Of a stretch of DNA of 64,000 nt, positions 13,415 through 64,000 are shown in pieces; the stretch's first letter is position 1; each line of letters opens with the position of its first letter. The position numbers and the translations under genes were made by a program. This DNA is from Tetradesmus obliquus (lineage: Eukaryota; Chlorophyta; Chlorophyceae; Sphaeropleales; Scenedesmaceae). The DNA lies in assembly GCA_030272155.1 (NCBI GenBank), contig CP126191.1:580501-644500 (forward strand), read 5' to 3'. Under the pieces are notes generated by a model. The model made no database searches. It was given only the letters and a program-made list of their open reading frames with translations, and had not been told where the DNA came from.

Positions 13415-16368
13415 ATGTGCCCCCGGTCCGAGCAGACCTCCTGTAAAAAGGGAAAGAAAGGGACGCTACTTAAACATGGAATCAGTGGTTCCAACAGATT
13501 TGTCATCAAGAAATTGGAGGAGCAGCTGCGGAGCAAGCAGCAGAGATGTGAAGAGGCAGAGAAAGTAAACAGGGAGCTGCGAGCCAAGGAGCAGGTATGG
13601 TTTGTGCTGGGCGATGCTTTGCAGACTTATTCAGGGCGGTGGTCTGTTTGCCGAACAGCCTGGACCAGCCCTGAACAAAGCTGGCAGCGCCCTGCACTTG
13701 CTGCTGCACCCTGCCGGCTGCTGCTGAGCTCAGCGGGCTGCCTCTGACCATGCGCCTGTCCTGCAAGCACCCAGCAACAGCTGCACACTGCATACAGCTC
13801 TTGTGCACTGCATACATGTGCCAAAACACACCATGAATGTAAAACTCCCTGTTGACACTGCACAACGCGTGCTGCAACCTGTTGCAGGTGCTACTGGAGA
13901 ACATTGCTGCGCAGGGAGAGACGCTTCACTTTGTGGCGCTTGCGGCGCTGCAGCAGCCAGAACTCAGTGGCGATGGCAGCGAGGGAGGCGAGGGCACCAT
14001 GGCTAGCATGGCTCGCATATTGATGGAGGATGTGAAGGTGACTGCCTGGTTGCTTACACCAGTTTGTCCAGGGATAAGCAGCTAGATTGTGCACCTTCTC
14101 TCCCTTCATTGTGTCTCTTCCTCTTCTTTGTCACATCACAACCCTCACTTGTCAGCACGCAGAGCACACACACCATGCAGTGCATACTGTGGCGTTGTGA
14201 AAGGAACCGTCGCCAGCAAGGCGCGCTCACTGATAGAAATGTGCAGGTGCGGCAGCCGCTGCGATCATTGCAACCGTTACTGTTGACTGGTGGCACCTGC
14301 CTAGTAACATTCACGTGTTCACACCACCACCGTCACTTTCCCTCGCTCTCGGCACCCCTCTCTTCCCCTTCTACGGGGTCGGCTGGGGTAGCACTGCAGC
14401 TGCAGCAAGGCAGTCCGACAGCAAGCTCAGCAGTTGAGCTCTCGCTGATCGTGATACGTGAACATTGTTGTTACATTGCACATCCGCGCATGCACACTGA
14501 TTGCCATCCCGGATTGCGCTGCGCATGCGCCGCTGACGCAACCCACCACCCTTTGCGCCACCTCATCACACAGGTGCATGCCATGCTTGAAGATGTGGGC
14601 CGAGCAGCAGCACGCGCTGCAGATGAGGAGGAGTCCTACACCAGCCGCTGCATGCGCGCAGCCTTCACGCCGCAGCGAGTGTCCGAGGTTCGAGGCTACA
14701 GCCTCGCGCAGGTCGTGCAGCAGCTGCAGAGCCTCACTATGAAGCTCGCGTTGCTGCTGCAGCACGACAACGGGGCAGCGTGCGGCGCGCGCAGCGGCAG
14801 CGGCAGCATGGGCGGCAGCAACATGCAGCAGCAGCAGGAGGAGGACGAGGAGCTGCCGCCGGCACTGTCTTTCGGCATTGATGGAGTGGTGGATGAGTAC
14901 ACTGAGCTGGCGATGCTGCTGCATGTGGCGTCAGACAAGGTCAACCTGCAGCTAGGTGAGTGCTAGGGATAGCCGGCAGCAGCATGCCGAGTGCGGTGCC
15001 AGGGCTTGGCAGCAGCAGTAGCAGCAGCAGAGGTGGTGTTGAAGGCAGCAGGGGATGTTGCTGCTGCATGTGGCATCAGATAAGGTCAACCAGCAGCTAG
15101 GTGAGTGGATGGCTGGCACTGCTGGCAGCAGAATGCCCAGTGCGGTGCCAGGGCTTGGCAGCAGCAGCAGCAGAGGTGGTGGGGAGGGTGTTGATCAATC
15201 ACCGGCCGGGCTTTATTTGCGCATGTGGCACTGCCAGCGGCTGCTGCAAATGCCAGCAGGGTGGTCCAGCTGCAGCTGAATATGTGCCTTGCCAAATGCC
15301 GCGCTGTGGAGAGTCCCCAGTTTTCCGTGAGCTGCCAAATGCATGACAATCTGCCCGTGCATCTCTGCCAGGCTCTGGTCCAGGTGAAAACTGCTCAGCA
15401 CCTGCAGCCGAGGAAGTTTCAGAGGAGCGGCTCAGACCAAAACCGGAAGTGACAGAGAGCTTGTGCAACGACGCCTCAGGCATGTGCGTGAAGTGCCGCT
15501 GCTGCTGCCGCTGCTGCATGGCAAACTTCGTGCTGCTGCTGCTGCTGCTGAGTGCTGCCTGCAGGCACGATCAACCTGGACACGATGCAGCCGCACGAGC
15601 CGCCGCCGGGCCACTGGAAGCGCGTGGTGGGACACCTGCAGCTGCGCCCCGACCAGATCGACCACGTGTGCACCGGCTTCCAGGTGCGCTGCGCTCTTCT
15701 GCTGCTGCTGCTGCTGCTGCCTGTCAGCAATGAAGAATTTTCAGCACGTCGGTCCACAACAAGGTGTCATGCAGTAATCTACCGCTTGTGTTCGGCATTG
15801 CCGTTTGCTCACTATCTGTCAGCATCGCTTAGCCATGTGCAGCAGCAGAAGCAGCAGCAACAGCAGCAGCAGCCAGCAGCTTGATGCCGCAGCACAAGTC
15901 CTTTCAAGCTTGACACATCCTGCACATTGCGTGATCCTTGCTGCAGTATGTACTCATGAAATCCCTGCACCCCCGCTTTGTGTTTGTGCCAGTCCAGTTG
16001 GTGTTCCTCACTTGCAACACGCGTGTCCTTCTGCCTTTGCAGATGTATGCCAGCAAGTCGGCACCGCTAGTGGCAGCAATGCATGAGCTGGTGCGGCTCA
16101 TGCGCACCATCACAGGATCAATGCCGCCGCCTCGCAGCATACCCCCGAGCAGCTCCGGCAAGCCTGCTGCTGCTGCTGCTGCAGCTGCCGCCGCTGCCGC
16201 CGCTGGGATGCATGAGATCAAACGAGAAGACAGCCCCAGCTGCAGCGGCAGTATGTGGTCAGCGATGTCGTCAGGTGACGCACACAGCGCGCCGTCTGGT
16301 GACTTTGTATTCCGCAGCGGCAGCGGCGAGGGGCAGGCGGGCAGCAGCAGCATGCCTTGGCAGCAGCC

Positions 16369-16407
<39 letters not shown>

Positions 16408-17328: not shown

Positions 17329-17329
17329 C

Positions 17330-21599: not shown

Positions 21600-24500
21600 A
21601 TGGCAGCTACCGCTCAGGATTCGTTAGCACCGCTGAGATCTGGGGAGGGCAAGAAGGACGAGGACCGGGAGGAAGAAAGTACGCTTGGCAACAGTGCAAG
21701 CACAATGTCAGCTGCTTGTCGCTCGCTGCTATTGTTAAGATCAAATGCTATACTTAAACAAGCCGCACGCACAGCACTTGCAGACGCGTTGTGCAGCAAG
21801 AGCAGCAGACCACAACCACCGTTAAGTTGGTGCTGGCTTGCTGTCTGCAGCCGAGTACTCCCCGTTCTATGGCATCGAGAAGGGAGCAGTGCTGCAGGAG
21901 GCTCGTATTTTTCATGATCCAAACCTGGATCCCAGGCGTTGCTCGCAGGTGGGCTGCCTGGGCACCAGCAGCAACTGTTGCTGCTGTTTCATTGGCGGTG
22001 TCATCCGCAAGCAGCAGCTGCTGCAGGCACACCATGGGAGCAGGTGTTGATATCAAGGTGTTGTTACTGCAGGTGATCACAAAGCTGCTGTACCTGCTGC
22101 ATCAAGGAGAGACGTTCACAAAGGCAAGTACACACCACCAGCAGCAGACAGCATATGCTTTCTTCTGGGCGAGCATCCGACCTGCATAAGCAGCAGGTCT
22201 GGCTGGCGGTACTACTTGCAGGAGCCAGCTGTGCTTGTGTTTGCAAGGCAGCACTGTTAATTTTGTGGCAGCAAGCAGCGCATCTGCCAGTGCATTTGGC
22301 TCACCGCAGCAGTGCCAATGGTGACAGGCTGGCAATTGTCCTGCAGCTTGCAATTTCGACGCGCTACCGCCAGTTTCAGCTGCCGCTTGCAGGAAAGCAG
22401 CTTGCTGCAGTTGCACGTCAGCCACGTGCATCACCTGCAGCAGCAGCAGCAGCAGGAGGTCTGCAAGCAGCAGCGGCGGCAGCAGCAGCAGCAGCAGCTG
22501 TGGCGACAGGTGCACCATCTGCAGTAGGAAACGCTGCTGCAGCACACGCTGGTGCAGTGCAGGCTGCCATACACAGCAGCAGGGGCTCTGGCTGCTTGAC
22601 CTGCCTGCAAGGGTGGCGCAAAGCAATATCTCATTCTGCAGTCCCACCTCCCACACCCAGTGGTCTCAACCCAACACCTGGGCATGCATGCTCACAACAC
22701 ACACCCCTTGCACCCCCGGCACTGCTGAAACCCACTGCTCAACATCCATTCCGTTACACACATCTGTTACTTACCCGCAGAAGGAGGCCAGCGATGTGTT
22801 TTTTGCGGCCACCAAGCTGTTCCAGGCCAAGGACCCGCACCTGCGGCGCATGGTGTACCTGTGCATCAAGGACATCTGCCCGGGCAGTGACGAGGTCATC
22901 ATCGTGACCAGCAGCCTCATGAAGGACATGAACAGCCGCGTGGAGCTGTACAGGTGCGTGGTGTGCAGTGCAGCAAAGGAGAAGCAGCACTAGCAGCAGC
23001 AGCAGCAGCCTCATGAAGGACATGAACAGCCGCGTGGAGCTGTACAGTGCGGGACGGTTGTCTGTGTTTCAAGGCGTGGGTGTTGCAGCAGCAGCAGCAG
23101 CAGCAGCCTCAGGAAGGCCATGAGCAGCCGCGTGGAGCTGTACAGGTGCGAGCAACAGCAGAAGCACCGCAAGTCTGTTTGTGTGCGTTTACGAGCTGGC
23201 CGGCAGCAAGCAGCAGCCTCGTAGAGGCCATGAGCGGCCGCTTGAAGGTGTACAGGTGCCAGCGGCTACGCATGTGGCGCAGTGCAGCAAAGTCGCAGCA
23301 GCAGCAGCAGCACTAGCAGCAGCCTCAGGAAGGACATGAACAGGCGCGTGGAGCTGTACAGGTGCAGGAGCTGCCTGGCAAGCAGCAGTTGCAGCAGTGC
23401 AGCACAGCTAGGCTATCTTGCTCTAGGCTGCAGCAGCTGCCTCAGGTGTTCATGAAACTTCTCGATCTGAAGTTTGCCGCTGCTACCGTATGTTGGCGTG
23501 CTGTGCTGTCATCCCCCGCAGGTCCAACGCGGTGCGCGTGCTGTGCCAGATTGTGGATGGTCAGCTGCTGGCGCAGATTGAGCGCTACCTGAAGCAGGCG
23601 GTGGTGGACAAGAGCCCGGTGGTGGCAGCCAGCGTGCTGGTGTCAGCAGTGCACCTGATCAAGCACGTGAGTTGATTGAGAAACATTAGCAGCAGCAGGA
23701 GCAGCAGCAGGAGCAGCAGCAGTGCTCGTTGGGGGTGGTGGCAGCCAGCGTGCTGGTGTTAGCAGTGCACCTGATCAAGCACGTGAGTTGATTGAGAAAG
23801 ATTAGCAGCAGCAGTAGCAGCGGCTGTAGCAGCAGCAGTAGCAGCGGCTGTAGCAGCAGCAGTAGCAGCAGCGGCCCGAGCAGCGGCAGCAGCAGCAGCA
23901 GCAGCAGCTTGCATTGGGGTGGTGGCGGTGAGCGTGCTGGTGTCGGCGCTGCACCTGTTTAAGCACACGAGTTCACGAACAACAGAGAGCAGAAGCGGCA
24001 GCAGCAGCAGTAGCATTACATTGCCGTGGTGGCAGCCAGCGTGCTGGTGTCGGCGCTGACCTGATTAAGCTCATGGGCAGGGGGAAGGGTCGCAGCTGCA
24101 GCAGCAGCAACACAGGAAGGCGGTTGCCAGCTGTTGCAGTGAAGCGCGTCAGCTGCAGCAGGAGATTTGCGGCAGCAGTAGGTGCAAGGCAGCACCAGGC
24201 AGCCTCGCACAGAGCTGCAGTTAGTACAGCAGTGACCGGCAATGACGACACTTGAGCAGCATCCAATTCGTGTGGCTTGAGCAGCTGCAGGGCTGGCAAG
24301 CTTGTTTTAGGGCTACCTGCTGCTGCACTGCAGGAGCTAGCGCAGCACTGCGCTTGGCAATCGGCGGCAGGCAGCAGAAGCATAGCAGATCAGCCTGGCT
24401 GTGTGCGGCAGTTTCAGTCAGCAGCAGCAGCAGCAGCAGCGGGATAACAAGACGGGGGTTTGATGTGCCGACCGTCAGCAGTAGGCCACTCTCCCGCATC

Positions 24501-27500
24501 CGCCCTCCCCTAGCCTTGTATCATCGTCTGTCGTCATCGCCACCCTTAACGTTCGCTGTGTCAGAGACTGCCATCGTCATACCATGCCACTCTGTCACTA
24601 TTCAAATGCAATCTTATCGCCCGCAGAACGGCGAGATCATCAAGCGCTGGGTGAATGAGGTCACCGAGGCCGCGCAGAGCCGGCAGCCCATGGTGCAGTT
24701 CCACGCCGTGGCGCTGCCATCAACTAACATGTCATTTTGTCACTTGTTACAATGCAGAACGGCGAGATCATCAAGCGCTGGGTGAATGAGGTCACTGAGG
24801 CCGCGCAGAGCAGGCAGCCCATGGTGCAGTTCCACGCCGTGGCGCTGCTGCACGCGCTGCGCGCCAGCGACAGGCTGGCAGTGAGCAAGCTGGTCACGCA
24901 GCTGACGAGGGCGCAGGTGAAGAGCCCGCTGGCGCAGTGCCTGCTGGTGCGCTACGTGAGCCAGGTGAGGAGAGGCCCATGATCAGCAGCAGCAGTAGCG
25001 ACAGCAGCAGCAGTAGCAGCAGCCGTAGTGGCAGCAGCAGCAGCGGGCTCATCAGAGGTGCCTGCTGGTGCGCTACGTGAGCCAGGTGAGGAGAGGGTGC
25101 AGCAGGATGGGTGGTGAGGGATGTAGCAGCAGCATCAGCAGTGGCAGCAGCAGTGGTAGCAGCATCAGCAGCGGGCTGATTGGCGCAGTGCCTGCTGGTG
25201 CGCTACGTGAGCCAGGTGAGGAGAGGGTGCAGCAGGATGGGTGGTGAGGGATGTAGCAGCAGCATCAGCAGTGGCAGCAGCAGTGGTAGCAGCATCAGCA
25301 GCGGGCTGATTGGCGCAGTGCCTGCTGGTGCGCTACGTGAGCCAGGTGAGGAGAGGGTGCAGCAGGATGGGTGGTGAGGGATGTAGCAGCAGCATCAGCA
25401 GTGGCAGCAGCAGTGGTAGCAGCATCAGCAGCGGGCTGATTGGCGCAGTGCCTGCTGGTGCGCTACGTGAGCCAGGTGAGGAGAGGGTGCAGCAGGATGG
25501 GTGGTGAGGGATGTAGCAGCAGCATCAGCAGTGGCAGCAGCAGTGGTAGCAGCATCAGCAGCGGGCTGATTGGCGCAGTGCCTGCTGGTGCGCTACGTGA
25601 GCCAGGTGAGGAGGCGAGGGTGGTGGCCAGCAGGAGCAACAGGAGCCGCAGCAGCAGCAGCAGCAGTGAAAGGCTCATCAGAGGTGCCTGTTGGGGCGCT
25701 GCGTGAGCAAGGCAAGGGGTGCGTTGCAGGAAGAGGCGTGCAGCAGCAGCAGCAGCAGCAGCAGGCGGCGCAGCAGAAGACCAATAGCAGCAGCAGTCGC
25801 AGCGGCAACGGCAGGCGCATCAGCAGTGGTCTGACACTGAAGCACGTGGGCCGCAGCTGCTGTGATTGAGTTGGGCATGAGAAGGGTGCAGCTGCGGCAG
25901 CCAAGGCTTGCGCTAAACTCGCGCAAGTTTGGTGGGCGGTAGTCTGGGGGGTGCGCTAGCTGCAGGCCTGCGCGTAATGTTTGCACATCAGCAGCACCAG
26001 CAGCAGCAGCAGCTCATGGACAGCAGCAGTGCTGATGACGCCGCACCCCTTTTTGTGTGTGCTGCTACAACCTGCAGGTGATTGCTGACAGCCAGCCGGG
26101 CCCTGGGGGTGAGTCGCGGCCCTTCTACGACTACCTTGAGGGATGCCTGCGGCACAAGTCGGAGTCGGTCATATTCGAGGTGGGTGGGGGCCTTGCCACC
26201 AGGGTGGAGGGTTTTTGACTGGCTCTGCTGCGGTTGTGGTTTTGTCCTTCTTATCTGAGGTTAGGGCTGTGGCGCGGATGTTGTGCTGAAGTGCCTTTGC
26301 TCTGGTCCTTCGCGCTTTTTATGCGCTGCAGAGCAGAATATGGCTGGGCTAATTTGATTGAGCCAGCTGCACAGCGCGGTGAATGCGACTATGCCACGCA
26401 GCAAATGTTGCCGTTTCTGTTGCGCCTGTGCTGCTCTCCTGCAGGCCGCGCGCGCCATCTGCAACCTGCGCAGCAACAGCCGCCGTGGCATGCAATAGCA
26501 GTGTCCTTGACACTTGTGTACTGCCTTGTTCTGCTGCAGGCTGCGCGCGCCATCTGCAACCTGCGGGATGTGACGGCGCGCGAGCTCACGCCGGCCATCA
26601 CGGTGCTGCAGCTCTTCCTCAGCAGCAGCAAGCCCGTGCTGCGCTTTGCGGCGGTGCGCACACTCAACAAGGTGGGTGCGCGCAGCACGGCCGCATGTGC
26701 TTATTGGCTTGCTTATTCCTTTCAATGCATTGGCCATCCCCATTCAATTGTCTTTGCCTAGAGCAAGCCCGTGCTGCGCTTCGCGGCGGTGCGCACACTC
26801 AACAAGGTGGGTGCACGCAGCACACATCAGGCCGCGTGTGTTGATTGGCAGGCTTACACGTCTCATCACATGGACCAACGTAGACAAGACAGCATACCTG
26901 CAGCCGCCTTGCACTTCCTCCTTGAAGCCCCACGTGTGTTGCTGCTTGTGCCTGTCTCGTAAAGGAGGCCATGAGCCACTCCATGGCGGTGACTTTCATC
27001 TTGCAATGAACCGCTTTTTGTTCTTGTTGCTGTCCCTGCTTCGCTTTCCGTCTGTTGCATCGCTGCTGTCCCAGGTGGCCATGAGCCACCCAATGGCGGC
27101 GACCAACTGCAACATTAGCCTCATATTGAACCACCCTTTGTGTGTGTTGCTGTCCCTGCATTGCTTGCTGTCTGCTTTTGCCAGGTGGCCATGAGCCACC
27201 CCATGGCGGTCACCAACTGCAACATCGACATGGAGTCGCTCATCAGCGACCAGAACCGCAGCATCGCCACGCTCGCCATCACCACGCTGCTCAAGACAGG
27301 TGCGGCATGTGCCAGGGTGACTGCGCATTGATCTGTACTGCAACTCTGTCGTGTGCACACGCTGGCCACCACCACGCTGCTCAAGACAGGTGCGTGGCAT
27401 GATGTCATTTGCATGGCACGCTGCACATATACAAGCTGCTTTAGCAGTGGTATATTTTCAAATGCCAAAGTGCTGGCTATCACCCCGCTGTTCAAGACAG

Positions 27501-30500
27501 GTGCGGATGGGCACGCGCAATTGCGGCGTTGCTTGTGTTTGCTCTTTGTTTTGCATCCCTGCAGGCAGCGGGGGCAGCGTGGACGAGCTGCTGCAGCAGA
27601 CCAGCTGCACTGTGACGGCACTGCAAGCTTGTTAGAAGACCTAGACCTGCTCTGCGGCCACACTATTCGACCGTGACCAACTCAATATTTGGTTGATTTC
27701 TTGCACCCCACAGGCAGCGAGGGCAGCGTGGACAAGCTGCTGAAGCAGACCAGCCGCACTGCAACCCAAACATGCTTTCCCGACACACTCTGTGACTGTG
27801 ACAAAACTTGATCTTGATTGTCTCTGCGCTCGCAGGCAGCGAGGGCAGCGTGGACAAGCTGCTGAAGCAGATCGGCGGCTTCATGAGCGACATCGGCGAC
27901 GACTTCAAGGTGGTGGTGGTGGGCGCCATCCGCAGCCTGGCGCTCAAGTTCCCGGCCAAGCAGCGTGCACTGATGGGCTTCCTGGCCAGCGTGCTGCGGG
28001 AGGAAGGGGGCTTTGAGTACAAGAAAGCAATTGTGCAGGCCATCCTGGAGCTGATCCAGGTGCGATTTGAAGGAGCTTGTGTGCTTTATGTCGCTGTTTT
28101 GTTTAGTTATTGGTGTGGCCCATTGTCGGGGCGGTCCTGGCACTGATTCAGATGTGCTGCAGGTTTGGTTTATTCCGGGGCCTGTGGTGCTTTGTGTGTT
28201 GGGTGCTTGCGATGTGCCAGCGCTGATGGGCTTCCTGGCCAGCGTGCTGCGGGAGGAAGGCGGCTTTGAGTACAAGAAGGCGATCGTGCAGGCCATCCTG
28301 GAGCTGATCCAGGTGCAGAAAGGCGGCTGGTTGATTGTTTGTGTGTGCTGTCTCAAAGAAGAGCCAATTCTGGTGATGTTCGGCTGGTTTGTGTTACACA
28401 TATATCACTCATCTAGGCGCGCGCTTGTGTCTTGCGCGTGTACTGTGTTGCAATCTGTGTTTGTGTCAGCGCTGATGGTCTTCCTGGCTAGCGTGGTGCT
28501 GGACGAGGGCCATCGTGCAGGCCATCGTGCAGGCCATCCTGGAGCTGATCCAGGGTGTGCCCTGGGTGCACCTTGAACTGCTTGGGCCAGGCCAACTGAG
28601 CCAGTTCGCGGATGCGCTGACAACACATCAAAAGCCACTGACTCTGCTGCTGCCGCTGCCGCTGCCCTTTGCATGTTTACTCTGGACTGTGCAGGAGATC
28701 CCTGACGCGCGCGAGGCTGGACTGGGCCACCTGTGCGAGTTCATTGAGGACTGCGAGTTCACCTTCCTCAGCGTGCAGGTGCTGGCGCTGCTGGGGCGCG
28801 AGGGGCCCACCACCAAGGAGCCCGCGCGGTGAGTGCCTTGACAGTCATGTTGTGTGCAGCAATGTGATGAGCAGCAGCAGCAGTGTGTCAGCACCTGCTG
28901 GGGCGAGAGGGGCCCACCACCAAGGAGCCCGCGCGGTGAGCGTGCAGTCACAATAAAAAAACAGCAGCAGCAGCAGCAGCAGCAGTGTGCGTGCTGTTGC
29001 TGGGTCGCAATTGGCCCACCACCAAGGAGCCCGCGCGGTGAGTGCTGGTGCCTGAACCTGCCTGAACCCTGTGGCAGCAGCAGCGGCAGCAGCAGTAGCA
29101 AGTTTGGGGTGTGGGTCGCAAGGGGCCCGCTACCAAGAGCCAGCACGGGGAGTGTTCAGGCCTGACAGCTCAACCCTGCGGCAGCAGCGGCAGCAGCAGC
29201 AGTGGATTGGGGAGCAGCAGCTGTGTATGAGAGCCTGCAGCGGCTGCCTCCGCTACATCTGCAATTACATCATCCTGGAAAACATCTCTCAACAATTTGC
29301 ATTTACACCCCCTGACCGCAGCTACATCCACTACATGTACGCCCGCATTATCGTTTCAGGTTTCCATCAACTTGCACTGATAATATATTTGCTTTGTTTG
29401 CGTCCCTTAACGCGCAGCTACATCCGCTACATCTACAACCGCATCATCCTGGAGAACGCCACCGTGCGCGCCGCAGCTGTGTCCGCACTGGCCAGCTTTG
29501 GCGCGCGCGTGCCGGAGCTCACGGCGCGTGTGGTGGTGCTGCTCAAGCGCGCGCTGTACGACAACGATGATGAGGTGCGATGTCTTGTCTGATTGGTGTG
29601 CTGGCTGTGTCGTGCTGTTGGGATGCGGGTGGTTGCCCAGGCGCGCAGTGCCATGCATGTGGCTCGGTGTCCAGGCAATCCAACCCCCTTGCAGGCATGT
29701 TCAGATGCTGATCAAGCTGTGCACATGCTCACTCCCTGCGCGTCTCCTTTGCGCACAGGTGCGCGACCGTGCCACGCTGCACCTCACGCAGCTGGGTGGT
29801 GCTGCGGGCGGCCCTGAGGCCATCTGCCCCAGCCTGCAGCTCAACCTGGCGGCCATGGAGGGGGCGCTGGCTGCTTACTTGGCAAGCGACGACACGCAGC
29901 AGCCCTTCGACGTGGTGGGTGGCTGCTTTCAAGTTATGTTGCATCGATGCACATAGCTTGTATTGCATACTTTGGCTGGATTCAATTAGAGGTTGTAGTG
30001 GCAATATAAGGGGCGCTGGCTGCTTACCTGGCATCCGATGACACGCAGCAGCCCTTCGACGTGGTGGGTGCTGCATCTTGGCTGGGCAGCTGCTTACTGT
30101 TTACATCGGTTGCAAATGAGTTGATCGCTGGCAGCAGAGCAACAGCCTTGTGCGTGTGCAGCAGCTTCAGCAGGTCTCATTGCGTCACATACAGCAGCAC
30201 TGCTGTCAAAAGTTCGCATGTTTTTCAGTCTGCATGTATACAAGCTTCTGTGGCCCTGACAATTCTATCCTGTGCCAACACCATCCCCCACTGCAGTCCG
30301 CCGTGCCCAAGGCAGCACCAGAGGCAAAGCTCCCCAAGCCGCAGGGCGGCCTCATGGCAGCAGCAGCAGCAGGCGGCACAGCAGCAGCAGCGGGCGGCGC
30401 GGCAGCTGGCGGCGCCGCGGCAGCAGGTTCTGCTGGCGGCGCTGGTGCTGCTGCTGGCTACAGCTCGCAGTATGAGGCGATCATTAAGGCCCGGCCAGAG

Positions 30501-36050: not shown

Positions 36051-36085
36051 TGCACAATAGCCTGCGCTCCCAGCGCTGCAGCAGG

Positions 36086-37520: not shown

Positions 37521-37577
<57 letters not shown>

Positions 37578-37713
37578 GAGACGGAAACATCACATAGAGA
37601 GGGTTGGGGCCAGCAGGGCGCAGAGCGCTTTGTTGCCATGGTTGGGAATATTGTTGCTCTCACTCCAACTGTGCTTGCTGCAGGAGAAAGTTGAGATACT
37701 AACGGCTGCTCAA

Positions 37714-37748
<35 letters not shown>

Positions 37749-45238: not shown

Positions 45239-45282
<44 letters not shown>

Positions 45283-48200: not shown

Positions 48201-48834
48201 TGTCATGCCCCCTGCAGCAAGTATGACAGGGCAAACAAGGGCGGGATGTTTGGACTGATGCTTTTCACTCACTATGACACTACTGTGTGCTGTGTGCTGT
48301 GTGCTAACCCTGCAGCAAGTACGACCGCAGCAACAAGGGCGGTCTGTCCTGGGAGGACATCCAGTCCATGATCCTGGGCAACATGAACATCGTGGACCCC
48401 GTGGGATGGTGAGTCTGTAATGCATTTTGTATTGCAGCAATGCATGGAAGGGTGTCAACAGCTGCACTTGGTTGGTCCTGCATATTCCAACGCCTCTTGC
48501 ATGTCTTGCATATTCCAACGCCTCTTGCATGTCTCTGCTGTGCTCCAGCTGCACTTGGTTGGTCCGGCACTTCCAGCAACCTTGATGCTGTATTTGCGAC
48601 GCTATTTGCCGTTGCTGCATTTTTCGTATTTGCCTTCAACTACCTGCCCCTTGCAGGACTGCGGAGCGCCTGGAGTGGTGGGTGCTGTACCTGCTGGCCG
48701 CTGATGACAACGGCATCGTGAGCAAGGAGAAGATCAGGGGCAACTACGACGGCAGCCTGTGGTACAAGATCGCTGAGGAGGTGGAGGCCAAGGGCCAGGC
48801 CCGCGCTGCCGTGCAGAAGGCCAAGTGGCAGTAG
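44325..48834 (+). CDS. CLO: Caleosin (lipid-droplet peroxygenase family)
   Basis: Eight exons join in phase to 243 aa: 44325-44418, 44781-44892, 45285-45325, 46298-46409, 47311-47357, 47582-47636, 48316-48408 and 48657-48834. Caleosins are calcium-binding haem peroxygenases of lipid droplets and ER. The EF-hand loop DRDQDGVIWPWD (68-79) has all ligand positions. The putative haem histidines are present in QQHVDFF (H63) and in NMHRCKHGSDS (H127/H131). The hydrophobic segment with the proline-knot region reads YPSGTGLLPDPFM, so the knot is less Pro-rich than in plants. The C-terminal half (YDTEGRFVPEKFEELFSKYD, GLSWEDIQSMILGN, EWWVLYLLAADDNG) is typical. The start has a good gccaccatg context. 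Length matches plant caleosins. Introns contain exon-edge copies. Confidence 0.95.
44505..45060 (+). repeat. Edge copies after caleosin exons 1 and 2
   Basis: 44505-44536 repeats the end of exon 1 with donor (LDSKLPHP then ccag|gtaggt). 44933-44966 and about 45028-45056 repeat the end of exon 2 (QQHVDFFDR). The first keeps the donor cag|gtgcgg and the second is altered. Confidence 0.85.
45187..45284 (+). repeat. (CTG)n tract leading into caleosin acceptor
   Basis: Nearly 100 bases of CTG triplets with a few CTT interruptions run directly into the acceptor ctgcag at 45279-45284. In this position the tract may serve as the polypyrimidine-like part of the 3' splice site. The same arrangement precedes several acceptors of the coatomer and importin genes. 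Confidence 0.8.
46475..46840 (+). repeat. Copies of caleosin exon 4 3' end
   Basis: Blocks at about 46475-46495, 46556-46612, 46690-46742 and 46808-46842 repeat the end of exon 4 (SYPSGTGLLPDPFMR) with decreasing similarity. Two keep the atgag|gtgag-type donor. A further edge copy, of the start of exon 7 (SKYDRSNKGG), lies at about 48210-48250. Confidence 0.82.
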
Positions 48835-54354: not shown

Positions 54355-56077
54355 ATGGCTGATCAGGTAGTTGCAGCTATCACAGCACTTTATGGATCAG
54401 ATGATGCAGCAGTTCGCAGCGAAGCAGACCGCTGGCTGGAGCGGTGGCAGTCCTCTAGTGAGGCCTGGACGGTGGCCAATGCAATCCTGCACAACCCAAG
54501 CAGCGGCGCTGAATACACGTACTTCTGCGCTCAAACGCTGAAAACCAAGGTGGGCTTGCAATGAGTGCCGCAGGTCAGCCAGTTCGGTTGGCAGTTGTCC
54601 TGCTGCTACAGCTTCTGCTGTTCTGCCAGCTGCATCCAGCTGCAGCAAGCAAAGGCTGGCCTGTGCGGTGCTCAGTGAAGCAGTTCAAATCTTTGCTATT
54701 TTCACAGAGCTGCTGCTGCAGGCCCTGCTGCTCCACCAAGTTGCTGACTGCCTTGATAAATTGAGGTCAACTGCCAGCGACCAGCCTTTGCTTGCTTCTG
54801 CTGCTGCCTTCCACTGAGGCATTAGTGATATGTCAGCCCCAGCAGCAACATCTCCCCAGAAACCAAACAAAAAAACAGTTGTGCATGTCCCCTGCAGGTC
54901 CAGCGTGACTATGAGGAGCTGCCAGCAGAGTCAGTGCCGCAGTTGCGGGACAGCTTGCTGCAGCTGCTGCTGCGCTTTGGGCATGGCTCTCCTGCAGTGC
55001 GCACACAGCTGTGCCTGGCCATGGCAGCGCTGGCTGCACACCTGCCGGCAGCACAGTGGTCAGAGGGCGGGGTTTTGCGCTGGCTGATGGAGCGGTTCAG
55101 CGGGCAGGACCCTGCAGTTGCCATGAGCTGCATGCTGGAGCTGCTGACTGTACTGCCGCAGGTGCGTTGTGGTGAAAGTATGCTTGCAAGGTGTTGTTAC
55201 CTCAGCAGCGCAGATGCAAGATCGGCTGAAGAACTTGCAGGGGCAGCAATGGCGACATGAGCCGCAGCAAGCAGCAGCAGCAGCAGCAGCAGTGGTGGCC
55301 GAAGCATTCTGGGATGTCAGCGTAAGCACGACAGTCACAACAGCAGCTAGGCAGAAGCATAGTCATCATGTGCAGTATGAGCAGTAGACCCGGGGCACAA
55401 AACTGACAGCCACAGCAGCTGCCTTGCGCTGTATGGAACTGGCATGGCGTGCCGCCACTACTCGCCACTCTCTGCATGCCATGTTGCGTTTGCTGGCTGC
55501 TTGCAGGAAGCTGACAGCCGCAAGATTGCCTGCCGCCCTGAGCGGCGTGCAGCATTTGCTGCTGAGCTGCGCGCAATCATTCCAGATGCACTGCAGCTGC
55601 TGACTAGGTGCGCGCTAGAGCTGGCGTCTTTTGCAGCAACTGGGAGACTGCTTGGCAGCCTAGCTCAACTTTGCACGCATTGAACAGCTACATTCTGGGC
55701 TGTGCGGCAGTGGATATTTTGCAGAGGGCAGCAATGTGGACAGCTGCTGCCTTTGCCTCGCGCATGTGAAGCACAGCAGCAGCAGCGACCGCAGCAGCAG
55801 CAGCGTGTGTGGTGCAGCAGTAAGGGGCTCGGCGCTTGCCAGCACAGCAGCGCGGGATCATTCAGCCAATGTTGCCGCCTGCGGCAGCTGTTCAGTATGC
55901 TTGCAACTCACATGCACCGCTGCTGGCTGTGCAACCGCTGTAACTGCTGCTGGCTGCACCTTCCCTTCCTGCAACACCTCCACTGCTGCTTGCAACACGC
56001 TCACAGCTGTTGACTCCCTGCTGCGCACTTTGCCACAAACGATGCACTGCTGCCGCTGCTGCTGCCGCTGCTGCTGC

Positions 56078-56122
<45 letters not shown>

Positions 56123-56200
56123 AGCTGCCTGGGGCAGCCCGGCGAGACTGCGTGGCCAGGTGCTGGAGAGCCTGGGCTGCTGCATGTTATCAAACAAACT

Positions 56201-56240
<40 letters not shown>

Positions 56241-57184
56241 CTACCACTGCTGTGCTGCAGCTGCCTGGGGCAGCCCGGTGAGACTGTGCGTGGCCAGGTG
56301 CTGGAGAGTCTGGGCTGCTGGCTGAAGCTGTCTGGGGGCAGCGACCTGCCTCAGGGCCTGGCTGGCAGCGCGCTGGTGACTGCTGCGCTGGAGGGGCTGG
56401 GCGTGGACGGCACCTTCCATGCGGCAGTGGACGCGGTGAGCTAAAAATGGTTATGTTGGTTGTGCAGCAGTTGGTGTTGTGGGGTTGTGCGATGTATATG
56501 CTGCGCTGGAGGGGCTGGGTGTGGATGGCACCTTCTTATGCGTCCATGGACGCGACGCGGTAAGTCACTGATGTAGTAGTTGGGACGTTCCGTGCGGCAG
56601 TCGAAGCGTTGCATTCTTTGCCTGAAACGTTCCCATGCTGCGCTGGAGGGGTTGAGCGTGGATGGCACCTTCCAGATGGGAGTAGATGCGGTGAGTTCCT
56701 TTGCAGTAGCTGGGACGCTGTGGAAAACCCTTTGAATACTTAATGCTGCATTCTGCAGGTTGCGGAGCTGATCTGGATCACTGTAGACCCCGCCAGCTGC
56801 AAGCATTGTCACTGACTGTGTCAAACACCCTGTGGAATGTCGAACCCTGCATTACAGGTTGTGGAGCTGATCTGGATCACGGTGGACCCCGCCAGCTGCG
56901 TGCCCTTCAAAACATGCCAACACCCTGTGCAATGTCACTTTTGCATTTTCCCTCTGCAGGTTGTGGAGCTGATCTGGATCACTGTGGACCCCGCCAGCTG
57001 CGTGCCCAACCCTGAGATGACCGGGCTGGCGCAGCTGCTGGTGGGGCGCGTGATGGCGCTGCGGCCGCGCTTCAGTGTCGCGCTGCACAAGGCGATCGCA
57101 GGTAGGCAGATATAGAGGCTATGGCAGCGGGATCAGGCTGTGGATGCGGCAGCAGTAGCAGGATGAGGCTGTGGATGCAGCAGT

Positions 57185-57215
<31 letters not shown>

Positions 57216-60200
57216 AGAAGTTGAACCTGTCACTGGCAGCACTAGCTGTTCAGCGTGCCGCTGCACAAGGTGACTGTAGGTGTGCATGTGAGGGAACGAG
57301 TGGGTGTGGGTGTGGCTGCTGGTGGGGCGCGTGATGGCGCTGCGGCCACGATTCAGCGTTGCGCTGCACAAGGTGATCGCAGGTGCGAGCGGGTGTGTTG
57401 ATGTGTTGATGTGCAGCAGCAAGGTGGTGAGCAGTAGCAGCAGCAGCAGCCACTAGGCAGTTCAACTTAGCACTGGCAGAATGAGGGCTGAGTTGCAATA
57501 CCCGTCAGAGCTTCCACCTTTCATGTGTTTGCAGCCCATAGCTTGCAACCGCACATTGCATTGCTTGCCGCAGACTTGAAGGGCCGAGGCGGTGGCAGTG
57601 GTTTGTGCGTGTGTCATCCGGCAACAGCAGCATCATGCTGTGCACATGTACATGCATGATGCACCTGTGGTGCTGTCTTATTCTCTTTTATTGTTTTTCC
57701 TTTTATTGTTTTTCTTGCCGCAGAGGCTGACGGCCGTGACGGCGGCAATGACAAAGACGTGGATATAATTCCAAGCTGCCTCAACAGCCTCGTCATGTGT
57801 CATCGCGCTCACACACATTTTTCTCCGCCATTACTATGTGTTGCTGCAGAGTCTGAGGGCCGTGACGGCGGCAACGACAATGACGTGGATGACGAGTTTG
57901 ACGACGACAGCGAATCCGTCAAGGGCATGGCGCGCCTGTTCTGCGAGGTGGCGGAGGCCTACATCCAGCTGGTGCTGGCTGCAACACCAGAGGTGAGGCC
58001 TGTGGTGGTGACACCTGTACACACTATTGCTCAAAGCTTCTGTTGCTGCCTAGTACAATGTGTTTGTGAAATGGCGGAGGCATGCATCCAGCTGGTGCTG
58101 GCTGCAACACCAGAGGTGAGGCCTGTGGTGGTGACGCCTGTACACACTATTGCTCAAAGCTTCTGTTGCTGCCTAGTACAATGTGTTTGTGAGGTGGCGG
58201 AGGCCTACATCCAGCTGGTGCTGGCTGCAACACCAGAGGTGAGGCCTGTGGTGGTGACGCCTGTACACACTAGTGTTAACTGCTGCGTTGTTGCCTGGTG
58301 CAACATTATGAGGGATGATGTTGCTTGCACTGCTAGGCGTGGCCGCTGCTCTGTGTGTCCCCGTGAGGTGGCGGAGGCCTACATCCAGCTGGTGCTGGCT
58401 GCCACACCAGAGGTGAGGCCGCTGCCAAAGTGCAGATGAGGCTGATGCAGAGAGTGATGAGAGTGATGCTGATGCGGAGAGTGATGAAGGAAGTATCCTA
58501 ACAGTTACGTATTTGTGACGCAGCTTGATCAATGCTCATTTGCATACAGGTGGTGATGACAGTGCAGTGACTGTCATGCATTTGTGATGAGTGTCTTTCG
58601 TTTGCGCCTTGCTCCAAGCAGCTGCCGCTAGTGCTGGGCGCCACGCTCAAAGTGAGGCCGACGATGATGGTCACATGCCTGCAATGCACATGCGGGCCTG
58701 CTGCTGCACATGCCTGCTGCTTGCAATTGTATTAATTGCTGCGCTGCTGTCCGCAGGTGCTGCCTCCTGTAGAAGCGCTGCTGGACGCGACCGCACACCC
58801 GGAACACGACATCTTCTCAATGAGCTTCGGCTGCTCATGTGCATGGAAAGCTAAGTGGCTGCTGCTGCTGCTGCTGCTGCTTGCAGGTATTGCCACCCGT
58901 AGAAGCGCTGCTGGACGTAACCGCACACCCGGAGCATGACATCTTCTGAATGAGCTTCTGCTGCACAAGTGCAAGCCAGCAAAGTGGCGGCTGCTGCTGC
59001 TGCTGCTGCTGCGTGCAGGTGCTGCCTCCCGTAGAAGCGCTGCTGGACGCGACCGCACACCTGGAACACGACATCTTCTCAATGAGCTTCGGCTGCTCAT
59101 GTGCATGGAAAGCAAAGTGGCTGCTGCTGCTGCCGCTGCTGCTGTGTGCAGGTGCTGCCACCCGTAGAAGCGCTGCTGGACGTCACCGCACACCCGGAAC
59201 ACGACATCTTCTCAATGAGCTTCGGCTTCTGGCACAAGCTCTCAAGACAGCTCAGCACAGCAAGCTTAATGCAAGAACAGCAGCAGCAGCAGCAGCAGGC
59301 GCCGGGCTCGCCGGTGCAAGCTGCTGCCGCGGCGGCCACGAGCGCGGCAGCGGCGGAGCAGCAGCGGCGGCGGGAGTTCTTCCGGCCTGCGTTTGAGAAG
59401 CTCATCAGCCTTGTGCGGGGCCGCATGAGGTGGGTGGAGTGCGCTGCAAGCTGGCGGCTTGTTTGTGGTTGTGTGTTTGTGGCAGGCGTGACTGCTCAAG
59501 GCTGGCGATCCCACGTGAACAGTGTGGTGGAGAGCCGAGCCTTGTGCGGGGCCGCATGAGGTGCGTGGAGTGCGCTGCTGGCGGTTATTTGTTCCTGGGT
59601 TATGTAAATTTGGCAGGCGTCATCAAGCGCACCATGTGCTCAGCAACAGCATGCCGCAACGCACGCCTTAAAGCTACAGGAGTTTGCTGTCATGCATGTC
59701 ATGATGCGCTAGCGCAAAAGAGACACACCTCCATTGCAACACTTCCTATTGCGCTTTTAGAAAAGTGTGATGCACTCTTCCATGTCATTCACTGGTTGAA
59801 TGTACCTGCAGGCTGCCAGATGGCTACAGCAGCATGCGCAACAGCGAGCGCGCCGACTGGCGCCGCCACCGCCACGCCTGGGCAGACGTGCTGGTAGATG
59901 CCTGTGACGCTGTGGGGCAGCAGCGCGCGCTGCAGCTGCTGCTGCTGCCGCTGACGGAGGTCAGCCAGGGCGTGGCTGCTGGGCGGGAGTTTGACTGGAA
60001 GACCGCTGAGCTTGCTCTGCACTGCGTGAGGTGGGTGTTGGTTCTTGAAATGAGGTTGCTTTTTCTTGACAGCCTGACAGATGGTGCTTTCGCGAGGTAA
60101 CCGGTTGCAAGAGTGATTTAATGATAGCTGATCTTGCAATGCACTGCATGAAGAGGGATTGAACGTGGAATGCTAGCTTTGCACACTGGAGCAGCTACCG

Positions 60201-60330
60201 ACATCGCGTGTGGCTGCTGCTGCTGCTGCTGCTGTTGGCGTTTCCATCCGCGCTGAAGTGTGGCGTGCATGCCGTCTGCCCCGCTGAACCTATGCCGGAG
60301 CAGCTGCTGACATCATTTCTTCTTCTGCTG

Positions 60331-60362
<32 letters not shown>

Positions 60363-63300
60363 CATTTCAACCATCCAGGAGTGTGGCTTGCATGCCCTTC
60401 GCGCCAACAGAGCCCATGCTGGAGCAGCTGCTGACTGCGCTGCCCACGCTGCCGCCCAAGCCGCCACAGCTGCCCTACACCTCTGCACTGCTGCTGTCTG
60501 CGTATGCCGAGTGGCTGGACAAAGCCATCAGCGCTGGGCGCTGCGGCAACATCATGCCACAGTGAGTAGGCTTGCACACATTGCTGAGTGTTCTGAGTCA
60601 GGGCGCAAACAAAGGACAGCAAGTATTTTTCGTGTGCAGCGAGTTACACGATGCGTGCGCAGCTCCACACGTAAAGCGCAACCCACGAATGTCTGGCAAC
60701 CCCTGGGCATGTGCAAATGATGCTGTCCCTTGTTTTGAAATGCATGAAACTCTCCTGAGATGCATGTTTTTCCTCGTCTATCTGTTTTCCGTCATCTACG
60801 TGCGTGCAGGCTGCTGCCGATGCTGCTCACAGCACTAGGCGACCCAGTGTCAGCCCCAGCAGCCGCCATCGCCATCCGCGACCTCTGCGACTGCTGCGGC
60901 AAGCACATGGGCACCCCCCACATCTTAGAACAGCTCATGGCGCTCTATGCAAAAACCCTAGAAGCAGGCGCAGCCACTAAAACCGCAGCAGCAGCTGCAG
61001 CGGCAGCAGCTGCAGGTGGTGCGCAGGGTGTGATTGCAGGGCCGGTCATGACTGCGGCGCAGCGCACGGCGGCGGCTGGCGCTGCGGTTGCTGCTGCTGG
61101 CAATGCTGTGGCTGCGGCTGGGGCGCTGCATGAGGATGACGTGCACTGTGTGATCCAAGGCATGGTCATGTGCCTCAGCAGGTGCGGGTTGTTTTGTAAT
61201 GCAATATAGTTGAGTAGTTGTGATAATATGGAGTTGGGTGTATGCCAGTGAGATTCCTGTTTCACTGCATGATACAGGGCATGGTCATGTGGCCTCAGCA
61301 GGTGCGCTTTATGACACCGGAACGACAGCTTTAGTGCAAAAATGCAGTGGTGTGTTTGCTGTTTGTCTTCAAAGTAAGGGTGTAGGTCAATGTTGGAACT
61401 ATGCTCAACCGTGCACTGACTCATACAGAGCATGGTGCTGTGCCTCAGCAGGTATGGGGCATACCGATTGCGCATGCTTGCACTGTCGATGACAACCAGG
61501 TGATATCACTCTGTTTGTCTTGGAGTACGGGTGTTCAACTGTTTGAAATGGCCTACTGTGCTCTGGCGCCGCTGCCAACCATGTGACCTCATCAACAGCC
61601 TGCACACACACTTGCGCCTACACATGCAGGTGCCTGCCAGAGCAGCAGTCGGCGGCCATGTTCTTCTAGCGCTGTTGCCAGCTCCATTTTATGTGACCCG
61701 TGCCCAAGCCTTCTTCAACACCTAAAATCATCGCGCCTACACATGCAAGTGCCTGCTCCTTTTGATGCAACTCACCTGAGCGAGGCACTCACACTTGCTT
61801 CTACACATGCAGGTGCCTGCCGGAGCAGCAGCTGCCGGCCGGCCTCATCACCCTCGCCCGGCCGCTGCTGCAGCCAGTCACAGCAGCCATGCAGCAGTTC
61901 ACTCCCAGCCTCGGCGCAGGCGAGACAGCACTGGCAGCTCACCTGCCGCTGTTTGATAGGTTGGCCACGCTGTTCCAGAGCATGAAGCAGCAGCAGGCGG
62001 CAGCGACGATCCTGCAGCAGGCGTGGGTGCCGCTTGATGTGGCGCTGCTGCGGGGAGCCACGGATAGATCGGCGGTGGAGCGGCTGTGCAGGTGGGTGGC
62101 AGGGTGCTGCTGCGGCTGCCGCTGCGTGCAGGAGTGGCGGAATCAGCACAAGCAGTGGTGTGCTGCTCAAAAGCAGGATGTAGTATTTGCATTATCTTGC
62201 AACTTGTATAACCCTAGTGCTGCATGATTCGGCCTGCTGTCGGGTGGATGTGCTGTGGCTGCCGCTTGATGTGGCGCTGCTGCGGGGAGCCACGGATAGA
62301 TCAGCTGTTGAGCGGCTGTGCAGGTGGGCGCCGGGCTGCAGCTGCTGCTGCTTGCAGGAGTGCCAAAATGTGCACCAGCAGTAGTGTGCTGCTCAAAAGC
62401 AGGACGTAGTGATCACATCATCCTGCAGTTGAAAGACTTTACCTCTAAAGATGGGGCCGCATGATTCGGCCTGCTGTCGGATGCATGTGCTGTGGGTGCC
62501 GCTTGATGTGGCGCTGCTGCGGGGCGCCACAGATAGATCGGCGGTGGAGCGGCTGTGCAGGTGGGTGGCGGACTGCTGCTGTTGTGGCTGCTGCTAGTAG
62601 AGTCAGCAGCAGTGTATCTCAGAAAAGGATGGCGCAGTGATAACCTCAACTTGCTAAGCCGATGGCTTGCAAAAGGCCTTCGCCTTCATTTTGATGGAGT
62701 CTGCATGATTTCGGGTGCTGTTGGATGCATGCGCTGTGGGTGCCGCTTGATGTGGTGCTGCTGAGGGGAGCCACGGATAGATCGGCCGTGGAGCGGCTTT
62801 GCCGGTAGGTGGAATTGGCTGGTGCTGCTGCTGCTGCTGACACTGCTGTTGGTCATGCTGTCAATCTCTTCTTACTTTGGCTGATATGCCTGTGCTCCTT
62901 GTTTTGCCTGTCCAGGATGCTGCGCTACGGCATCAAGGCCTCAGAAAACAGCTGTGGTGTTCTCTTTAGGAAAGCTGACAATACCTCCCTATGCGTATCA
63001 CTCTTCTCCCGCAGGGTGCTGCGCTACGGCATCAAGGCCTCGGGCAAGTCGTGCGCGCCGCTGCTGCCCACGCTGCTGGAGACGCTGCCGGGCCGCTTCC
63101 AGCAGGTGCGCCTCTGCCTGAAGCTGACGCAGCAGGAAGAGAATGGGTGTTTTTGGCTTTGTGCATGTTGGTGCTTGTGCTCAAGCTTGTTGAGCTTGGT
63201 GCCTTAGAGAAGTGACCGTGTTACGTATACATGCTGCATGTGAGCAGCTTCAGCGCCAAGTTGCGACTCCCGCTGTGCACCAACAGGCGTGTGTGCGCAC

Positions 63301-64000
63301 CCTGCTACTGCTGCTGCTGCTGCAGACGCGGCACCCAGCCTTCATGTACGTTGTGAGCGAGCTGCTGAAGATCTTCTGTGCGGAGACAGCCACTGATGGC
63401 AGCATGCGGCCCATCCTCACGGCACTCATAGGCAGCAGCTGCGCAGGCCTCACCACGCTGCAGGTGAGGGCAAGTGCAAACAACCATTGCGCAGAGGTTT
63501 GTAGTTGCAAGGCGGGCGCTGTTGGGGGTGGTGGGTGTTGGTGTGGTGCATGCTGCTTGCAGCTGCTGACAGCAGCATGCCGCCCATCTTGACAGCACTC
63601 ATAGGCAGCAGCTGCGCAGGCCTCACCACGCTGCAGGTAAGGGCAAGTACAAACAACCATTGCGCAGAGGTTTGTAGATGTAAGGCGTGCGCTGTTGAGT
63701 TGGTGGCTGCTTGCAGCTGCTGGCGGCAGCATGGGCCAATTGTCAGGGCACTCATAGGAAGCAGCTGCTGTGCGGGCCTCACCACGCTGCAGGTGCGCAA
63801 GTGCAAACACCCGTTGCGCAGAGGTTTGAAGTTGTAAGGCGTGCGCTGTTGGGGGTGGTGGGTGCTGGGGCATTGCAGGCTGCTGACGGCAGCATGCAGC
63901 CCATACTGACAGCCCTTGTAGGCAGCAGCTGCGCGGGCCTCACCACGCTGCAGGTGCGCGCAAGTGCAAGCGACCATCGCGCAGAGGTTTGTAGTTGCAA
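54355..64000 (+). CDS. TNPO3: Transportin-3 / MTR10-like importin (3' truncated by window)
   Basis: Thirteen exons join in phase to 860 codons and the gene continues past the edge: 54355-54549, 54898-55161, 55507-55607, 56261-56435, 56960-57101, 57850-57992, 59152-59429, 59812-60030, 60379-60561, 60810-61181, 61813-62091, 63015-63105 and 63326-63463. This importin-beta family member carries SR-type splicing factors into the nucleus (TNPO3 in animals, MOS14 in Arabidopsis, Mtr10 in yeast). Matches to the family are SEADRWLERWQSSSEAWTVA, FCAQTLKTKVQRDYEELPAE, LRDSLLQLL, SCMLELLTVLPQEADSRK, RGQVLESLGCWLKL, FSMSFGFWHKL, IRDLCDCCGKHM and FMYVVSELLKIF. It forms a HEAT-repeat solenoid. Gln/Ala insertions occur near residues 375-405 (exon 7) and Ala-rich near 620-670 (exon 10). 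About 80-100 C-terminal residues are missing. Introns hold many exon-edge copies. Confidence 0.93.
56122..56910 (+). repeat. Edge copies around importin exons 4 and 5
   Basis: 56122-56183 repeats the start of exon 4 (CLGQPGETxxGQVLESLGC) upstream. About 56497-56562 and 56636-56693 repeat its end (ALEGLGVDGTF). 56757-56805 and 56859-56912 repeat the start of exon 5 (VVELIWITVDPASC) with ctgcag or tacag acceptors. Most differences are single bases. Confidence 0.87.
57225..57385 (+). repeat. Copy of importin exon 5 3' end
   Basis: About 57318-57382 repeats LLVGRVMALRPRFSVALHK with a donor gcag|gtgcga, and a shorter fragment lies at about 57245-57280. CAG tracts lie on the left (57180-57212). 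Confidence 0.82.
57720..58420 (+). repeat. Edge copies around importin exon 6
   Basis: 57721-57768 repeats the start of exon 6 (ESEGRDGGNDNDVD region). 58063-58145, 58190-58268 and 58364-58422 repeat its end (EVAEAYIQLVLAATPE plus gtgaggcc). The first two share about 60 further intron bases with the genuine junction, so the copied segments include exon, donor and intron. Confidence 0.9.
58757..59120 (+). repeat. Three copies of importin exon 7 5' start
   Basis: Blocks starting at 58757, 58887 and 59019 repeat the acceptor and first about 75-85 bases of exon 7 (VLPPVEALLDVTAHPEHDIF then SMSFG). Each is preceded by a CTG tract or ttgcag/gtgcag acceptor. Spacing is about 130 bases. The second copy has five silent changes but also a TGA in place of a Ser codon. 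Confidence 0.9.
61274..61760 (+). repeat. Edge copies between importin exons 10 and 11
   Basis: About 61274-61306 and 61430-61456 repeat the end of exon 10 (GMVMCLSR plus donor). About 61624-61655 and 61740-61758 repeat the acceptor and first codons of exon 11 (acatgcaggtgcctgc). Confidence 0.75.
62243..62812 (+). repeat. Three copies of importin exon 11 3' end
   Basis: Blocks at about 62250-62330, 62490-62572 and 62733-62812 repeat the last about 70 bases of exon 11 (WVPLDVALLRGATDRSAVERLC) with donors cag|gtgggc, cag|gtgggt and ccg|gtaggt. Most base changes are at third codon positions. A copy of the start of exon 12 (MLRYGIKAS) follows at 62914-62946. Confidence 0.9.
63565..63960 (+). repeat. 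Copies of importin exon 13 3' end
   Basis: After the donor at 63463, three more blocks (about 63565-63642, 63728-63795 and 63885-63960) repeat ALIGSSCAGLTTLQ with its donor and intron sequence (gcaagtgcaaacaaccattg). The array reaches the window edge and may continue. Confidence 0.88.

Follow-up and report, generated by a model that had tools for sequence, protein, structure and literature searches.

Tandem copies of exon edges in Tetradesmus obliquus introns suggest intron growth by duplication across splice junctions

Introns of the alga Tetradesmus obliquus contain partial copies of their own flanking exons, each made of an exon edge together with its splice site. We have examined these copies in a window of 64,000 bases (the whole stretch analysed here, bases 580501-644500 of contig C1, which has 11,144,458 bases) of the T. 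obliquus assembly (104.66 Mb, 17 contigs), above all in a gamma-COP gene (COPG) and a transportin-3-like importin gene. In both genes the donor-edge copies lie downstream of their exon and the acceptor-edge copies upstream. We consider it probable that the introns grew by recurrent tandem duplication of ~125-bp units straddling exon-intron junctions, the duplicates being kept where the mRNA was unchanged and decaying neutrally thereafter.

Exon-edge copies in COPG and importin

The exons of both genes were placed by a purpose-written spliced aligner using homologous proteins. COPG occupies 21600..33369 on the + strand with 19 exons and 913 amino acids (aa), a model based on spliced protein alignment, a hand-corrected open frame (exons 3, 4 and 14 adjusted, one 2-base exon dropped) and 913-aa chains from contigs of complementary DNA (cDNA) size; the corrected reading frame contains no stop. 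Intron 3 of COPG apparently uses a GC donor (AAG|GCAAGT, window 22124), since the FTK|KEASD junction requires that site. The importin gene, also on the + strand, extends over 54355..64000 with its first 13 exons and continues past the window end. It was modelled by spliced alignment with the T. obliquus protein P0121, to which the window query is 99% identical, the end of exon 13 being set by hand.

Each exon with 12 flanking bases was compared with the CAG/CTG-masked window (E<=0.01), the exon itself being excluded. The 19 COPG and 13 importin exons gave 66 matches, 63 of which carry an exon edge. All 40 donor-edge copies were located downstream, 37 in the next intron and 3 beyond the last modelled exon, and all 23 acceptor-edge copies in the preceding intron. 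No copy on the wrong side was found by this search (0/63), so that the consistent sidedness proposed in the earlier note was borne out for every edge copy. The three remaining matches are weak (E 0.003-0.008), edge-less and outside the gene, one of them inverted. Copies are present for 30 of the 61 intron-facing edges and their exon part has a median of 44 bases. Comparison of the masked window with itself (E<=1e-3) yielded 106 pairs of direct repeats within 5 kb of each other, no inverted pairs and no pairs farther apart than 5 kb.

The COPG gene hosts 16 edge clusters comprising 37 copies, all identified by the exon search on the + strand; here and for importin, a cluster runs from its first to its last coordinate. 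Four donor-edge copies correspond to exon 4 (23014-23051, 23113-23150, 23211-23259, 23324-23365) and three to exon 5 (23734-23794, 23918-23973, 24026-24070). Exon 6 has an acceptor-edge copy at 24623..24717 and six donor-edge copies forming a 130-bp array (25058-25096, 25181-25226, 25311-25356, 25441-25486, 25571-25613, 25684-25712). Exon 8 has one copy of each kind, acceptor at 26435..26470 and donor at 26762..26818; protein comparison shows that the deposited P0207 includes the latter as an additional exon. For exon 9 we found two acceptor-edge (26963-26993, 27071-27115) and two donor-edge copies (27358-27401, 27472-27506), and for exon 10 likewise two acceptor-edge copies (27561-27608, again an extra exon in P0207 by protein comparison, and 27711-27757) and two donor-edge copies (28220-28316, 28469-28554). 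Further downstream lie three donor-edge copies of exon 11 (28895-28940, 28998-29045, 29112-29154), two acceptor-edge copies of exon 12 (29240-29283, 29317-29352) and one donor-edge copy of exon 13 (30010..30074). Exon 17 is copied once at its acceptor edge (31706..31769) and three times at its donor edge (32054-32102, 32158-32208, 32252-32308), and exon 18 three times at its acceptor edge (32499-32539, 32597-32657 and 32717-32771), protein comparison showing that 32605-32703 is also encoded in P0208. COPG residue 825 (window 31850-32308) is Ser in the window, but P0206, P0208, P0209 and the relatives used for comparison have Gly. Gly is also encoded here by all three donor-edge copies downstream of exon 17, which therefore retain the older codon.

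The importin gene carries 14 edge clusters with 26 copies, found in the same way on the + strand. Acceptor-edge copies belong to exon 4 (56130..56182), exon 5 (56752-56800, 56855-56905), exon 6 (57715..57764), exon 7 (58753-58835, 58884-58969, 59015-59097), exon 9 (60257..60311), exon 11 (61618-61657 and the weak 61737-61756, E 0.004) and exon 12 (62913..62942). Donor-edge copies belong to exon 4 (56499-56554, 56636-56695), exon 5 (57315..57384), exon 6 (58072-58127, 58184-58250, 58365-58420), exon 7 (59538..59572), exon 10 (61263-61306, 61410-61453), exon 11 (62255-62328, 62492-62569, 62736-62812) and exon 13 (63560-63648, 63714-63803, 63883-63966). Intron 5 of importin also contains two short intron-only repeats with units of 15 and 31 bases.

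Unit structure, intron growth and junction preference

Adjacent copies are spaced by a median of 123 bases (quartiles 106-136, n=63), the unit being made up of ~44 bp of exon edge with its splice site and ~80 bp of intron. Spacings within a cluster are alike (19 clusters; 0/5000 permutations as alike) and so are consecutive inter-copy spacers in 19/30 cases (z>4), which indicates that whole units were duplicated. Over all identities, spacers are detectably homologous (z>4) in 31/61 parent-copy and 29/54 copy-copy pairs, and in parent-copy pairs with an exon identity >=0.97 this homology is detected in 7/9. These observations speak against templated insertion, of which polymerase-theta-type repair is an example and by which the exon edge and splice site alone would have been copied into the intron, leaving the neighbouring intron behind. 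Anchored alignments, in which the spacers appeared unlike, had favoured such an insertion; gapped local alignment and the inter-copy spacers reversed this in most, not all, clusters. The sharp drop of similarity at the splice site and the outer flanks described below are in favour of insertion; overall, we regard it as unlikely. In-register homology left in low-similarity spacers was not significant (70 pairs, P 0.09), nor was an argument from spacer length in the dissimilar subset alone (n=10, P 0.13).

Introns with more copies are longer (30 introns, rho 0.81), with a slope of 111 nt per copy and an intercept of 298; the median intron measures 239 nt without copies (n=11) and 589 nt with them (n=19). 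The most exon-like copy is usually the nearest one (29 pairs vs 11, with 13 ties). Considered per edge and excluding copies with fewer than 20 aligned bases, the nearest copy is more exon-like than the farthest in 14 cases, less in 3 and tied in 1, and the genome sample described below shows the same trend (5 vs 2). Such a gradient would be predicted were new units born at the exon, displacing older ones towards the intron interior. The increment per copy, the side rule, the COPG chain without insertions and the same pattern elsewhere support the proposal of the earlier note that introns grow through recurrent local duplication across splice junctions.

Under the tandem duplication that we favour, a unit holding a donor would leave its copy in the downstream intron and a unit holding an acceptor in the upstream intron; as long as the outermost site stayed in use, the mRNA would be the same and the copy effectively neutral. 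New copies would mostly be born beside the exon, with older ones shifted inward, a birth order read from similarity, and all would afterwards decay as non-coding sequence. The duplication may occur via replication slippage or unequal exchange, and exon-derived parts may be partially homogenised by gene conversion or unequal exchange between edge and copies. Selection would act as the filter producing the side rule, for which no special mechanism is required because tandem duplication and selection for an unchanged mRNA suffice.

Junction-spanning duplications are about twofold over chance placement, an excess that recurrent tandem duplication does not fully account for. With mRNA-neutral random placement, 16.1 of the 29 repeat families in COPG and importin were expected to span an exon edge and all 29 do (0/2000 permutations). 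The corresponding values in the sampled stretches were 37/46 vs 19.7 expected (0/2000 permutations) and, for the youngest families (>=95% identity), 8/9 vs 3.5 (P 0.003); predicted exons may be drawn to repeats in these stretches, a bias from which COPG and importin are exempt. Splice-motif scores above 10 occurred in 18/87 repeat families of the sampled stretches vs 10.6% of controls, with no difference at higher cut-offs, and the junction claim rests for this reason on the permutation tests. The same 87 families divide into 43 that cross a predicted edge, 34 situated outside predicted genes, 9 restricted to introns or untranslated regions and 1 in an exon; therefore, duplication is not confined to junctions. 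We tentatively entertain, as possible though doubtful, a stronger proposal: exon-intron junctions would be preferred sites of ~125-bp tandem duplication or of its retention, and the exon edge would be a constrained master copy seeding, and by exchange refreshing, a series of decoy junctions in the intron next to it, so that introns would grow from the ends inward in ~110-nt steps without transposons.

Several results weigh against plain duplication with neutral decay. With exons and exon copies masked, none of the 17 residual repeats in COPG and importin is an independent pure-intron duplication of unit size, all 17 being in register with an edge cluster (offset of at most 25 bases, junction no more than 160 bases away); plain random duplication does not predict that pure-intron units be missing. 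Exon-derived parts are more alike than adjacent spacers even when copy is compared with copy (median anchored score 36 vs 13.5 of 60, null 2-4), which exceeds the at most twofold gap expected without homogenisation. The flank past the outermost copy resembles a spacer in only 10/29 clusters (z>4), and L010 has three exon edges with 100% identity but an outer flank unrelated to the spacer; these two observations also favour insertion of the edge alone. Copies in the >=95% identity class show 15 synonymous vs 3 non-synonymous differences. Splice-site use was judged from protein chains, in COPG only. Both the long-lasting exon parts and L010 would be accounted for if the constrained exon edge exchanged sequence with its copies. 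The homogenisation pattern, with exon parts more alike than flanking spacers, would fit gene conversion, as judged from sequence likeness.

The earlier note had described the copies as usually separated by CAG/CTG tracts, which proved overstated: (CAG/CTG)3 or more occurs in ~40% of the 63 spacers vs 31% of random 80-nt intron windows. We also considered CAG/CTG as a general breakpoint, which the pooled values (n=63) of 0.43 vs 0.33 on the exon side (P 0.11) and 0.40 vs 0.36 on the intron side (P 0.51) do not support. Taken separately, donor-side exon breakpoints had CAG/CTG nearby in 22/40 cases vs 0.32 at matched positions (P 0.0035, uncorrected over four tests, the copies being non-independent), and acceptor-side exon breakpoints showed no enrichment (5/23 vs 0.30), nor did intron-side breakpoints. 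The whole genome is very rich in CAG/CTG, with 101,829 forward and 103,641 reverse overlapping (CAG)7 matches in 104.7 Mb.

Decay of the copies and the COPG mRNA

The 63 copies diverge from their exons by ~8% (243 substitutions in 3012 bases, and 16 gaps); 54 of them differ by 2-20% and 9 are identical across the aligned part. The differences comprise 113 synonymous and 105 non-synonymous changes and 2 stop codons. When 107 amino-acid or stop differences were polarised with relatives, 88 proved derived in the copy and 5 in the exon, with 14 unresolved; the copies behave as non-coding sequence. Coding constraint on the copies, suggested by the synonymous excess in young copies, was dropped since 88/107 protein-level changes are copy-derived. 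Splice dinucleotides are kept in most copies (GT in 32/40, AG in 20/23). This, together with exon-derived parts that outlast the spacers, would suit copies that selection maintains in splicing, whether they act as decoy or helper sites or serve as stepping stones in the nested removal of long introns. However, the dinucleotide loss (8/40 and 3/23) is about what 8% divergence predicts, and the protein-level differences arose mainly in the copies, with two stop codons and 16 gaps among them; selection of this kind appears quite improbable to us.

Two protein chains, P0205 and P0206, match the modelled 913-aa COPG without gaps or insertions, with 2 and 5 substitutions. Their contigs are probably cDNA, because the longest are 3.8-3.9 kb and the gene spans 11.8 kb, an RNA origin that we deduce from size. 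Absence of insertions in these chains implies that the outermost splice sites are used in COPG, in line with the previous claim that the mRNA is unaffected when they are. The copies lie within introns already present and contribute nothing to the coding sequence of P0205 or P0206, and COPG and importin proteins of relatives align without the copies in spliced alignments.

Two other deposited COPG proteins do contain copies. In P0207, which comes from this assembly, the copies of exon 8 (at 26762) and exon 10 (at 27565) are read as exons, whereas P0208, also from T. obliquus, includes the translated outermost exon 6 copy and the exon 18 stretch 32605-32703, with one residue different. These proteins, and the mainly synonymous differences of the youngest copies, would be compatible with the copies being real coding exons, alternative or mutually exclusive. 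Nevertheless, the copies are absent from P0205 and P0206, evidence that covers COPG proteins only, and from the aligned proteins of relatives, and the amino-acid differences are mainly copy-derived, so that we give coding exons very little credence. Annotators should be warned that the deposited gamma-COP proteins P0207 and P0208 carry as exons intronic copies that are absent from two cDNA-sized contigs.

P0208 bears in addition on whether the arrays are an assembly artefact, that is, a false tandem expansion. The near-identical exon 6 array of COPG could have a wrong copy number, and 9/63 copies are identical to the exon over the aligned part. Yet the other 54 diverge by 2-20%, and P0208, in which the exon 18 stretch and the outermost copy of exon 6 are translated, derives from another strain, given the six substitutions that separate it from the window model. 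We presume that this strain is UTEX 393. An artefact is scarcely credible to us.

Other genes, the genome and known systems

Exons predicted ab initio with our own gene finder (15/19 COPG and 11/13 importin exons exact, both being training genes) revealed 14 further copies in three genes of the window, all on the expected side. The bZIP-like gene has a donor-edge copy of its predicted exon 14712-14955 at 15059..15107 (+ strand). The PILS-like (Mem_trans) gene at 36414..41556 on the - strand has four donor copies (41160-41218, 36899-36999, 36652-36740, 36414-36503) and two acceptor copies (41516-41556, 39139-39181). The caleosin gene at 44505..48244 on the + strand has six donor copies (44505-44534, 44932-44967, 45023-45058, 46555-46615, 46698-46742, 46801-46846) and one acceptor copy (48210-48244). 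Pfam backs the PILS (Mem_trans) and caleosin identities. The same search gave 6 more matches inside one over-long predicted exon, and two matches were listed twice. The total of 77 (63 + 14) comes close to the roughly 80 blocks counted previously. As to the six host genes named in the earlier note, COPG, importin, PILS and caleosin do carry copies; the bZIP-like gene has only one and its bZIP label lacks Pfam confirmation, and GNAT copies were not found, the gene finder giving no GNAT model.

For the genome at large we sampled 10-kb stretches at twenty fixed positions that together represent all 17 contigs. They contain 177 near direct pairs and 9 inverted ones, compared with 0 pairs in block-shuffled sequence (blocks of 8). 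From 63 predicted exons we obtained 48 matches, including 27 edge copies in non-exonic sequence (13 acceptor upstream, 14 donor downstream). These 27 come from 7 of the 16 stretches in which exons were tested, and none is on the wrong side. The other 21 comprise 10 interior matches, the rest falling inside the same or other predicted exons or in a gene-sized repeat in L027; one weak acceptor match lies downstream in L020, inside a predicted exon. Edge copies accompany only 12/63 predicted exons, a lower share than in COPG and importin.

Three chaperonin loci were taken from 11 located by the Pfam family PF00118, not as an unbiased draw, because two of them (C16, C12) had already given overlapping profile matches; at the C16 locus, profile search alone gives three overlapping matches 140-146 bases apart. 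The three loci yielded 93 matches, of which 36 are acceptor copies on the upstream side and 34 are donor copies on the downstream side. Among the query exons, three are copies themselves. The exceptions are 2 upstream donor matches, which stem from a single copy wrongly predicted to be an exon; the others are 1 acceptor and 2 whole-exon matches from miscalled copies, 1 inverted, 12 interior and 5 within the same exon.

Intron lengthening is usually attributed to transposons, and introner elements, dispersed repeats that make or enlarge introns, occur in algae. Unlike introners, the four T. obliquus units searched genome-wide have no dispersed relatives, each matching its own locus only (very common words were skipped). 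Gao and Lynch, cited in PMC3443670, reportedly described in 2009 internal gene duplication with intron creation. Their short intragenic duplications are said to include splice sites, a likeness to our units, and to have produced new introns and exon duplication rather than stepwise growth from exon-edge copies.

Introns can also be gained when an exonic segment with AGGT is tandemly duplicated (Rogers 1989, Hellsten 2011, as described in PMC3443670 and PMC4974935), a process similar in that a local tandem duplication provides the splice sites and no mobile element is involved. There, the segment is exonic and the new intron forms between two AGGT, whereas the T. obliquus segment lies across a junction already present, whose intron it lengthens. 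As presented in PMC4974935, one tandem genomic duplication in the potato RdRp gene crosses an intron-exon boundary: it spans the acceptor junction, and the copy inherits the acceptor, the polypyrimidine tract and the exon start. The same gene holds an 83-bp duplication inside an intron. The potato case is, in that account, a single event giving a new intron and added exon sequence, in contrast to tens of copies per gene at both junctions in T. obliquus, with the intron lengthened and no coding sequence added in COPG. In the open-access literature searched, which leaves subscription journals largely outside, we found no description of introns growing throughout a genome by repeated duplication of exon edges. 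The earlier note, which knew of no described system of this exact form, is borne out to that extent, although a single junction-crossing duplication had been published for potato RdRp.

Among five algae compared in PMC5966456, T. obliquus has the longest introns (mean 462 bp, vs 230-302 bp in three other Sphaeropleales and Chlamydomonas), and exon-edge duplication could help to explain this. Excess intron length would become readable copy by copy, making intron growth datable and testable across strains, and the arrays offer a natural series of duplicated splice sites for studying how the spliceosome chooses the outermost one.

Other repeats were noted along the way. A 25-bp unit is repeated 14.4 times at 17411-17773 of the window, downstream of the bZIP-like gene. 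In the sampled stretches, L027:37-9373 (reverse-complement coordinates, C17) is a gene-sized tandem repeat with at least 3 copies, whose 100% identical predicted exons lie ~4.28 kb apart; L026:1-6042 holds large tandem arrays with best pairs at offsets 274 and 351, repeats spanning 5914 of 10,000 bases; and L011:1060-1174 contains, within a predicted exon, a tandem duplication of 54 bp (18 codons) with 100% identity. Finally, protein P0210 of Scenedesmus sp. PABB004 (1233 aa) combines gamma-COP and acetyltransferase (GNAT) Pfam domains, to be compared with window 21600-36400, which suggests either a conserved neighbour or a fused annotation.

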